Source of the DNA: an uncultured Verrucomicrobiota bacterium
GTDB taxonomy: Bacteria; Verrucomicrobiota; Verrucomicrobiia; Limisphaerales; UBA9464
NCBI GenBank assembly: GCA_903922605.1
Contig: CAIXUG010000026.1
Location: 1 to 64,000 of the forward strand
Reading direction: 5' to 3'
Length of the DNA stretch: 64,000 nucleotides
The notes below the pieces were generated by a model. That model did not search any database, was not told the DNA's origin, and worked only from the letters and a program-made list of their open reading frames with translations. Shown one piece after another: positions 62,459 to 63,682 of the stretch. How positions within the stretch are numbered: position 1 is the first letter of the stretch; the number at the start of each line of letters is the position of its first letter. The position numbers and the translations under genes were made by a program.

Positions 62459-63682
62459 GTGAAGAAACCCGCCGCCAAAACCAAGCGCAGCATTGCGAGC
62501 TATCCGACGCTGCTCACCGGCATCGGTTCGCTGCTCGAACAGTCCCGGCGTGCAGTCATGCGGGCGGCGAATGGCTTCATGACCGTCACCTACTGGGAGA
62601 TTGGCCGGCGCATCGTGGAGTTCGAGCAGGGCGGCAAACGGCGTGCGGAGTATGGGGAGGAGCTGCTGAAGCGGCTCGCCGAGGACTTGACCACCCGGCA
62701 CGGGCGGGGGTTCTCGGAACGGAACCTGGAGCAGATGCGCCGGTTTTACGAGAGCTGGCCAATTTCGCAGACGGTGTCTGCGAAATCTTTTCCCGCCGAG
62801 CCTCCGGCAATTTCGCAGACAGTGTCTGCGAAATCTCCCGGTCTGATCTCTGCAGCATTCCCGCGCAAAGCCGCCAGCCCAGACTGGACCGAGGTGCCTC
62901 ATGCCCTCACCACCTGTTTTCCGCTCCCGTGGTCGCACTATGTCAAACTGCTCACCGTGAAGGACGAGGCGGCCCGCCGGTTCTACGAGGAGGAAGCCCT
63001 ACGGGGCGGCTGGAGCGTGCGCCAGCTGGATCGCCAGATCGGCTCCCTTTTCCACCAGCGCACGCTCCTGTCAAAAGATAAGGCCACCATGCTGCACAAG
63101 GGCGCGAAGCCCCGGCCCGGTGACACCCTCACGGTGCAGGAAATTGTGCGCGACCCGTTCGTGCTCGAGTTCCTCGATCTCAAGGACGAATACTCCGAGA
63201 CCGACCTCGAGGAGGCCCTCGTGCGCCACCTCGAGAGCTTCCTGCTCGAACTCGGCGGCGACTTCACCTTTGTCGGGCGCCAGCGCCGCCTCCGCATCGG
63301 CCAGGTCTGGTATCGCGTGGACCTCCTCTTCTTCCACCGCCGCCTGCGCTGCCTCGTTGTCCTCGACCTCAAACTGGGTGACTTCACTCACGCCGATGCC
63401 GGCCAGATGCATCTCTATCTCAACTACGCCCGCGAGCACTGGACGCACCCCGGCGAAAACCCGCCCATCGGCATCATCCTCTGCTCCTCCGCCGATGCCG
63501 CACTCGCCCGCTACACGCTCGATTCGTTGCCCAACAAAATCATGGCCCGCGAATACCAGTTCGCCCTGCCGGAGGTGAAACGTCTCGAAGCCGAGCTCAA
63601 CACCACGCGTATGTTGCTGGAGCGATCCGGGAAGAAAACGCCGAGGCGTCGGGTGAGCAAAGGCCGATCCGCACAACACTGA
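62459..63682 (+). CDS. DUF1016 (YhcG-type) PD-(D/E)XK nuclease with internal palindrome-coded repeats
   Basis: The 407-residue product has the DUF1016 N-terminal helical domain (about 15-100, YWEIGRRIVEFEQGGKRRAEYGEELLKRLAEDLT...FSERNLEQMRRFYESWP) and the C-terminal nuclease domain. The active site is Asp288 (YRVDLLFFHR) and Asp303-Leu-Lys305 (VLDLKLGDF), fitting PD-(D/E)XK. Between the domains two copies of ISQTVSAKS (102-110 and 118-126) are coded by a perfect DNA palindrome. The family's role is uncertain: defence, DNA repair and association with mobile DNA have all been suggested. It starts with GTG at 62459, 30 bp after the TIM-barrel gene. Confidence 0.93.
   Translation: MKKPAAKTKRSIASYPTLLTGIGSLLEQSRRAVMRAANGFMTVTYWEIGRRIVEFEQGGKRRAEYGEELLKRLAEDLTTRHGRGFSERNLEQMRRFYESWPISQTVSAKSFPAEPPAISQTVSAKSPGLISAAFPRKAASPDWTEVPHALTTCFPLPWSHYVKLLTVKDEAARRFYEEEALRGGWSVRQLDRQIGSLFHQRTLLSKDKATMLHKGAKPRPGDTLTVQEIVRDPFVLEFLDLKDEYSETDLEEALVRHLESFLLELGGDFTFVGRQRRLRIGQVWYRVDLLFFHRRLRCLVVLDLKLGDFTHADAGQMHLYLNYAREHWTHPGENPPIGIILCSSADAALARYTLDSLPNKIMAREYQFALPEVKRLEAELNTTRMLLERSGKKTPRRRVSKGRSAQH
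62762..62786. repeat. In-frame palindrome copy 1 inside the DUF1016 gene
   Basis: ATTTCGCAGAC (62762-62772) and GTCTGCGAAAT (62776-62786) are a perfect inverted repeat with spacer GGT. It is translated as ISQTVSAK in the DUF1016 frame. Read on the other strand it gives a near-identical peptide (ISQTPSAK). Confidence 0.92.
62810..62834. repeat. In-frame palindrome copy 2 inside the DUF1016 gene
   Basis: The same 11-bp arms occur at 62810-62820 and 62824-62834 with spacer AGT. It starts 48 bp, exactly 16 codons, after copy 1, in the same orientation and frame. Confidence 0.92.

Follow-up and report, generated by a model that had tools for sequence, protein, structure and literature searches.

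Palindromes within DUF1016/YhcG genes as probable binding sites of the proteins encoded by the same genes

The window analyzed here is the whole stretch of 64,000 nucleotides (nt) from contig CAIXUG010000026.1 of an uncultured Verrucomicrobiota bacterium. It contains a gene of the DUF1016/YhcG family in which two perfect palindromes are translated in frame. Why does a nuclease gene carry a palindrome twice inside its own coding sequence, and does the palindrome belong to the DNA, to the protein, or to a mobile element? The gene, predicted from its open reading frame (ORF) and from Pfam, AlphaFold, and fold searches, and the two palindromes are located as follows.

62459..63682, + strand: DUF1016/YhcG gene, 407 amino acids (aa), GTG start, with a predicted ParB-type DNA-binding domain and a PD-(D/E)XK nuclease
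62762..62786, + strand: candidate self-site 1, ATTTCGCAGAC-GGT-GTCTGCGAAAT, palindromic, encoding ISQTVSAKS
62810..62834, + strand: candidate self-site 2, ATTTCGCAGAC-AGT-GTCTGCGAAAT, palindromic, encoding ISQTVSAKS, 48 base pairs (bp) downstream of site 1

Both palindromes are 25 bp long, with 11-bp arms without any mismatch between them and a 3-bp centre; the spacers GGT and AGT differ by one base. The initial annotation, made from the sequence of the window, had described two palindromes in the same reading frame, 16 codons apart and coding for the same nonapeptide, and this was confirmed. No such palindrome appeared in 100 shuffles of the window, even when up to 3 mismatches were allowed. 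The protein belongs to the DUF1016/YhcG family by its matches to DUF1016_N and YhcG_C (PF17761, 138.4 bits with the cut-off 32.8; PF06250, 184.2 bits with the cut-off 32.5), at residues 22-201 and 227-380, respectively. The palindromes are encoded at residues ~102-126. Thus, they are inside the N-terminal domain and not in a linker between the two domains, where the initial annotation had placed them.

The two palindromes are very probably bound by the protein that their own gene encodes. The palindrome, its covariation with protein residues, a partial prediction of its letters, and the protein fold were computed, and we infer from them that the protein would bind the site.

DUF1016 genes were gathered by protein or family search from relatives, 20 genomes, viral contigs, and four clade samples (the class of G481, the class of G482, and the phyla of G483 and G485), and only the best loci of each search were taken (at most 30, or 60 for viral contigs). 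The family test set consisted of 239 non-redundant ORFs of at least 200 codons, 54 of which were selected by the palindrome pattern and 185 were not; the 15 genes of the 20-genome group come from genomes holding the pattern, while the genes themselves were not chosen by it. A palindrome in the same register, with a 3-base centre and a score of at least 9, was found in 160 of the 239 genes. The other two registers gave 7 and 4 genes, mirror repeats gave 1, and 40 rounds of synonymous-codon shuffling gave a mean of 1.35 genes (maximum 4). Without the pattern-selected genes, the score of 9 was reached in 109/185 (about 1 in shuffles) and the score of 8 in 146/185. All groups contributed at the score of 9: relatives 17/26, 20 genomes 6/15, viral contigs 36/51, and the four clade samples 15/23, 16/29, 8/19, and 11/22.

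Among 261 palindrome axes with a score of at least 8, 170 fall on a single alignment column (with EIVQT and LSAQLSWSHY on its two sides), 43 on the adjoining linker column, and 17 on a second helix 36 columns upstream. The arm sequences and the encoded peptides differ widely between family genes while the arms stay paired; in the short-linker members, the palindrome codes for the conserved helix. The proposal that the palindrome is a feature of the DNA was thus borne out by the codon shuffling and by arms that vary yet stay paired, and so was the expectation that the copy number at this place varies among relatives. A conserved peptide with synonymous changes breaking the palindrome had been named as the refuting outcome, and the opposite was observed: the peptide varies and the palindrome stays.

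The shape of the site was analyzed with 134 distinct 25-mers with a score of at least 8 from 147 genes. This set was chosen by score and includes the pattern-selected genes, and the pairing itself is therefore partly due to selection. The centre is R-S-Y in 116 of the 134 sites. Positions ±2 to ±9 are paired in 92-99%, and all four pair types occur at each position from ±2 to ±8. Positions ±10 to ±12 are mostly T, T, and A, paired in 81-87%; ±13 is purine/pyrimidine in 94%, and pairing is down to 30% at ±14. GT and AC mismatches are equally frequent (19 and 23 at ±2 to ±12; 30 and 28 at ±1), which favours a symmetric site on double-stranded DNA over an RNA hairpin.

If the protein reads this site, its residues should follow the letters of the arms. 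Mutual information was calculated over 159 genes, and outside the palindrome-encoding columns the top columns were 87, 90, and 91 (SERNLEQM), 115 and 118 (WSHYV), and 143 and 144 (GWSVRQL). The corresponding codons of the window gene are these.

62714..62746, + strand: codons of the putative main recognition helix SERNLEQMRRF, residues 86-96 (covariation; AlphaFold helix H87-99); the R88 column covaries with arm positions 6 and 7, the E91 column with 8 and 9, and the Q92 column with 5
62933..62944, + strand: codons S159-V162 (WSHYV), columns covarying with arm positions 3 (S159) and 4 (V162); AlphaFold helix H158-164
63017..63022, + strand: codons V187-R188 (GWSVRQL), columns covarying with arm positions 3 (V187) and 2 (R188); AlphaFold helix H187-195

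The pattern-selected genes share one arm sequence, and therefore the counts, the pairs test, and the test with genes below 40% identity were repeated on 141 genes without them. The earlier counts, the control-column test, and the table used for new genes include 53 pattern-search genes, the window gene among them. In the pairs test, 66 disjoint pairs of relatives were compared at 326 columns, with columns 98-113 around the palindrome left out. The best columns for arm positions 2-9 were, in order, 144, 115, 118, 91, 87, 87, 90, and 90, which are six residues on three helices. The uncorrected Fisher p-values range from 4.5e-4 to 4.2e-8; when multiplied by 326 columns, arm position 5 alone is not significant and arm position 2 is borderline.

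In the 141-gene set, Arg at column 87 goes with G at arm position 7 in 51/51 genes and Lys with C in 20/21. Column 91 goes with arm position 5 in a similar way (Gln, Asn, or Tyr with A, 68/70; Arg with C, 30/41), and Glu at column 90 is accompanied by C at arm position 8 (13/13). Arg or Lys at column 143 is combined with C at arm position 3 (43/47), while at column 144 Arg is combined with C (89/90) and Asn with A (13/18) at arm position 2. Contacts of Arg with G, Asn/Gln with A, and Glu with C would be chemically sensible. The window gene has the commonest base at all seven combinations (R88-G7, E91-C8, Q92-A5, S159-A3, V162-G4, V187-A3, and R188-C2).

The covariation extends to silent positions. 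The valine codon at arm position 7 is GTG with R87 (26/26) and GTC with K87 (15/15), and the one at arm position 5 is GTT with Y91 (19/19) and GTG with R91 (13/13). The alanine codon at arm position 8 is GCG with E90 (5/5) and GCA or GCC with K90 (23/23); the glutamine codon at arm position 4 is CAG with V118 (20/26) and CAA with I118 (15/16). We see no protein-level constraint by which a distant residue would set the choice between synonymous codons.

The letters can also be predicted in part. With learning from genes less than 40% identical, the correct calls exceeded the baseline at arm positions 3 (97/99 vs 7), 7 (103/131 vs 30), 4 (103/133 vs 41), and 5 (105/125 vs 78). The key column beat all entropy-matched control columns for arm positions 3, 4, 5, 7, 8, and 9, with the pattern genes included. 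The rules were also applied to E. coli K-12 yhcG and to 16 plasmid genes selected for spread, 17 genes in total, none of them in the data set. Some of them share up to 88% identity with training genes. Among the 108 bases for which a prediction could be made, 88 were correct vs 61 by majority. The gain came from arm positions 3 (13/13 vs 4), 4 (12/15 vs 6), 6 (11/12 vs 8), and 7 (10/13 vs 5). It is the covariation that points to a two-fold symmetric site read by three helices. The idea in the initial annotation that the nuclease recognizes the element is strongly supported, at the level of sequence comparison, by the covariation of reader and site, the silent positions, and the prediction tests.

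The fold search with the whole protein was filled by the nuclease domain, and therefore the N-terminal domain was modelled alone, from the relative L162 (predicted local distance difference test, pLDDT, 92.0; predicted template modelling score, pTM, 0.82). ParB, Noc, and Spo0J proteins occupied the first 19 rows with Foldseek (best E 0.06, none below 0.001) and the first 12 rows with VIA (Z 7.6-9.3), including complexes with parS or NBS; the VIA row after these 12 was an unrelated protein with Z 6.6. With the model of the whole window protein, Noc with its site was at rank 50 (Z 7.3). Pfam HTH_ParB matched 16 of 61 family members (best E 8.6e-5). These model comparisons indicate that the N-terminal domain folds like the DNA-binding domains of ParB/Noc. 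An N-terminal ParB/CTPase-type domain gave no Pfam match in the window protein up to E 5, and the N-terminus is modelled by AlphaFold as a long helix. In one plasmid relative, a parA gene is located two genes upstream of the DUF1016 gene. Sequence searches against solved structures gave no match for the window protein up to E 1, and with the alignment A1 as query only two weak rows (ribosomal uL24m, E 0.1). According to a 2005 paper, the ~200-residue N-terminal domain of the family matched no structure known at that time (PMC1189080).

63137..63598, + strand: YhcG_C PD-(D/E)XK nuclease domain (Pfam), with NucS/EndoMS as the nearest folds

The nuclease domain of the window protein resembles NucS/EndoMS in the fold searches (E 9.5e-5, Z 13.1). 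D288 and K305 are invariant in 61/61 aligned proteins, and in our reading of the family motif description in PMC1189080 they are the probable catalytic pair.

Several observations weigh against a protein that reads the palindromes of its own gene. Thr at column 87 and Lys or Arg at column 90 go with mixed bases. In the test with genes below 40% identity, four arm positions were not clearly above the majority: 2 (92/121 vs 98), 6 (53/99 vs 50), 8 (62/131 vs 82), and 9 (67/124 vs 65). In the comparison with entropy-matched control columns, the key columns of arm positions 2 and 6 were not superior to all controls either. Among the 17 new genes, the palindrome is present in 15 and absent in 2, arm position 5 was predicted in 13/15 vs 14 by majority, and E. 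coli K-12 yhcG breaks the rules at arm positions 7-9. Genes with several sites often hold copies that differ at arm positions 7-9. As for the fold, Pfam HTH_ParB is not matched by the window protein itself (up to E 5), Foldseek gave weak E-values with the N-terminal domain of L162 (best 0.06), and Z-scores of 7.6-9.3 are middling for a helical domain, for which such values can be common.

Further copies of each gene's own site were searched in 194 genes and their flanks (965 kb), where own-type means at least 17/22 matches and sites were counted once per gene. Inside the same gene, 90 extra sites were found (in 85 of the 194 genes; 85 of the sites are in frame), vs 7 outside, a number hardly above the control (0-5 in five reassignments). 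Frequent offsets of the extra sites are −108 bp (14 genes), +183 bp (7 genes), and +36 to +66 bp. The second site at −108 bp is seen in L016, L017, L019, L020, L040, L164, L239, L241, and six others, and the one at +183 bp in L021, L041, L192, L252, L255, L262, and L298. The fixed spacing could reflect cooperative binding, or only fixed codon positions. Outside the genes, sites are located 8-16 bp past the end of the open frame in three genes (L069, L319, and L241) and farther off in two genes (L274 and L289). A promoter operator with the same arms was rejected, as the flanks of the 194 genes gave two upstream sites and the outside total was near the control.

In E. coli, yhcG or part of it is present in 4417 of 5426 complete genomes, and at least 80% of the gene in 3310. 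Six E. coli genes were compared, and they fall into two allele types with three strains each. The K-12 type has three sites and the helix SAKNLRQM, and the 405 type has two sites and the helix STRNLWQF. Along the gene, K-12 and strain 405 differ at 5/240, 74/183, 14/120, and 8/588 positions; the block with 74/183 differences is nt 241-420, which holds one recognition helix and the sites. The other two 405-type strains differ from K-12 at 70/183 in the block and at 4-14 positions per segment elsewhere. Judged from these alignments, the block with the putative recognition helix and the sites is exchanged between E. coli alleles, with the rest of the gene hardly different. Within the 405 type, one site is ATTCTCCAGAC/GTCTGGAGAAT in one strain and ATTCGCCAGAC/ATCTGGCGAAT in the two others; of the two changes, one has its counterpart in the opposite arm, while the second, at the A adjoining the centre, has none.

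In 3526 E. coli genomes, 7053 places matched a 33-base query that contains the K-12 site (median 2, highest 4 per genome). A median of 2 corresponds to one palindrome on both strands, and therefore nearly all of these genomes have no further copy at that sensitivity. One Trp that is common to the five E. coli alleles compared with it is replaced by Arg (PLPRSTYV) in MG1655 yhcG (L341:5828-6955). In the family alignments, conservation at this position is at least 90%, and this laboratory allele may be weakened. Two separate breaks of yhcG beside transposase genes were observed. In an E. coli B derivative (L358:3001-3406), the gene ends at nt 406, the end of the last palindrome, and in the other case (L359:3001-3744) it begins at nt 385, inside the last palindrome (nt 382-406).

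DUF1016 was found on 463 of 72,556 plasmid records. In three of 16 plasmid loci (L344, L345, and L351), a type I restriction-modification operon contains the DUF1016 gene, with the M (methyltransferase) gene on one side and the S gene on the other.

The window gene itself lies between a sugar isomerase gene and deoC. In five relatives (L322, L326, L327, L329, and L337), deoC comes immediately after the isomerase gene, at a distance of 20-92 bp, which makes the window DUF1016 gene a single-gene presence/absence feature. No palindrome of such kind was recognized by eye in these five empty junctions, and the target expected of a homing endonuclease where the gene is absent is thus lacking there. 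In a further relative, this junction is occupied by a different insert of ~650 bp (L335:2418-3071), which suggests an insertion-prone place.

The exact 21-bp core of the window palindromes was searched over 84,980 species, and 73 occurrences were found in 72 stretches, with hosts including betaproteobacteria, bacteroidetes, planctomycetes, acidobacteria, and archaea. ORFs matching the DUF1016 profile contain 56 of the 73 cores; for one of these (L060), the best ORF was found in another frame, with the expected frame present there too. Three more adjoin a DUF1016 gene or fragment (L069, L081, and L110). The remaining 14 are not tied to a DUF1016 gene, and 10 of these resemble chance matches or are without part of the pattern (a rough chance estimate is a handful). 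The other four (L068, L072, L100, and L105) have all palindrome features with the R-S-Y centre, and no DUF1016 piece was found within 1.5 kb; in L072, ten extra base pairs extend the arms, and the contig ends ~385 bp away. The viral contig collection gave no match to the exact core.

How would such a protein work? It is predicted to be a dimer with a ParB/Noc-type DNA-binding domain and a NucS/EndoMS-like PD-(D/E)XK nuclease, and the DNA-binding domain would read a two-fold symmetric site of roughly 27 bp. Three helices would read each half-site, with R88, E91, and Q92 on the outer and middle bases, S159 and V162 on the inner bases, and V187 and R188 on the bases nearest the centre. Because the DNA-binding domain's own codons contain the site, close to those of one recognition helix, the two partners would move jointly and change together. 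At this location, recombination would not readily separate lock from key, which is also what the E. coli alleles suggest.

The consequence of binding is close to evenly balanced between autorepression and everything else. In autorepression, the bound protein would block RNA polymerase inside the gene and keep a potentially harmful nuclease low, and specificities would diversify against cross-talk with relatives. Two reasons favour it: nearly all sites are inside the gene, and a nuclease needs a brake. Against it, the nuclease active site is kept though repression alone would not need that, and an own-type site upstream of the open frame was found in just 2 of 194 genes (L249 at −45 and L110 at −152). 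A wider and more tentative proposal is that DUF1016 is a self-addressed family with an exchangeable cassette of helix and site, whose nuclease would act on, or be controlled by, copies of its own gene, as a self/non-self system (immunity or incompatibility) among mobile genes across bacteria and archaea.

Two other consequences of binding appear unlikely, to a similar degree. In one, the nuclease would cut or nick its own gene at the palindrome, and repair would drive the exchange of the helix and site cassette in a homing-like manner. The invariant D288 and K305 (61/61), the concentration of E. coli differences in nt 241-420 (74/183 vs 5/240 and 8/588 on either side), the breaks at nt 385 and 406 inside or at the end of the last palindrome, and the presence/absence of the single gene between the window and five relatives all agree with this. 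Instability would be expected of a gene that cuts itself, but at least part of yhcG is still present in 4417 of 5426 E. coli genomes, and at least 80% of it in 3310. Besides, the gene-less junctions of the relatives carry no such palindrome by eye, and thus classical homing into an empty site does not fit. In the other, the site would be a tag for incompatibility or immunity: an incoming copy with the specificity of the resident protein would be silenced or cut by the latter, and new specificities would thereby be favoured. The high diversity of the arms, the 463 plasmid records, and the exchange of the specificity cassette in E. coli are consistent with it, and it is suggestive that none of 30 same-genome paralog pairs share 7/8 arm bases (a 95%-identical pair was left out). 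This paralog difference is small relative to the between-genome background (1-37% of pairs, depending on protein identity), and the sparing of the resident copy would still need explaining.

The explanations that do without a DNA-binding reader fare far worse. The palindrome could instead form a hairpin in the mRNA, with a loop of three bases, and either influence translation or be recognized as RNA; this would account for the long arms and the short spacer. Such a hairpin is very improbable, as mismatches of the GU type are not more frequent than those of the AC type (19 vs 23; 30 vs 28) and the covarying residues are on helices of a predicted ParB-like DNA-binding fold. About as little credit is due to a mobile in-frame element like the Rickettsia palindromic elements, which the initial annotation had proposed, naming many genomic copies as an outcome that would support it. 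The variable copy number in the linker and the 14/73 exact cores not tied to a DUF1016 gene would agree with mobility. The rest of the assembly (5.3 Mb, 90 contigs, 96% complete) contains no further copy at up to 3 mismatches, so that the genome total is two sites, both in the window gene, and not many dispersed copies. The element was rejected by this genome search, by the single main alignment column with a single register across the family, and by the copy counts in E. coli, where nearly all of the 3526 genomes have no further copy of the K-12 site at the query sensitivity; the arm sequences also differ by gene and are tied to protein residues. Finally, the codons of a conserved helix (EIVQTLSAQLSWSHY) could be palindromic by chance or by amino-acid constraint, and in the short-linker members the palindrome does code for that helix. 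This plain protein motif has practically no chance of being right and was rejected, as synonymous-codon shuffling abolishes the palindrome (160 vs 1.35 genes) and the encoded peptides are diverse.

Binding of the palindromes by the protein of the same gene thus remains the preferred reading, and the family concerned is widespread, as the 4417 of 5426 complete E. coli genomes with at least part of yhcG illustrate. If it is true, most gene sequences of the family give both a DNA-binding protein and its candidate target, and they would form a natural data set for a protein-DNA recognition code with a directly testable function. Over most of the family range, coding DNA would at the same time serve the encoded protein as a binding site. 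If the family is self-addressed, every specificity would bring its own target along. In searches of open-access literature, no prior statement of a DUF1016-ParB relation or of the palindromes was found among the papers listed, nor an assigned function for the DUF1016/YhcG family. To our knowledge, a gene family has not been described before in which the cognate site of the product is, for most members, written into the codons of its DNA-binding domain. The parts, a ParB-type domain and a PD-(D/E)XK nuclease, are of known kinds, and the novelty would depend on whether any ParB-type protein with a site in cis counts as the same kind.

The closest known systems are ParB-parS and Noc-NBS, which share the DNA-binding fold according to the model comparison. 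In ParB (PMC7383237), two monomers read a palindrome through the recognition helix alpha4 together with alpha6 and alpha8, and specificity is set by R173-G1, Q173-A1, and R201-G(-6). Similarly, the covarying residues of DUF1016 are on three separate helices; from the helix order, without superposition, these are probably the same three as in ParB. Unlike in ParB and Noc, the DUF1016 site is longer (~27 bp vs 16) and has an odd centre, the protein has a fused nuclease, and the site is in the own gene in most members examined; unlike in ParB, no N-terminal CTPase-type domain was found in the window protein (Pfam, up to E 5). One parS of B. subtilis is inside spo0J.

The Rickettsia palindromic elements, described in PMC4316617 as selfish elements of ~100-150 nt in genes, RNAs, and intergenic DNA, are likewise palindromic DNA translated in frame inside genes, whereas the DUF1016 site is 25-27 bp long and tied to one gene family. 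Protein-DNA covariation in a family of site-specific endonucleases is shared with the LAGLIDADG homing endonucleases. Covarying targets have reportedly been described for these enzymes, whose target lies in the gene invaded. DUF1016 differs from them in its fold and in having the site in the nuclease's own gene. In the immunity regions of phages, the repressor as reader and the operators as its sites are exchanged as a unit. A joint exchange of reader and sites appears to have taken place likewise in the E. coli yhcG alleles, although the block there measures ~180 bp, lies within a single reading frame, and belongs to a nuclease gene.

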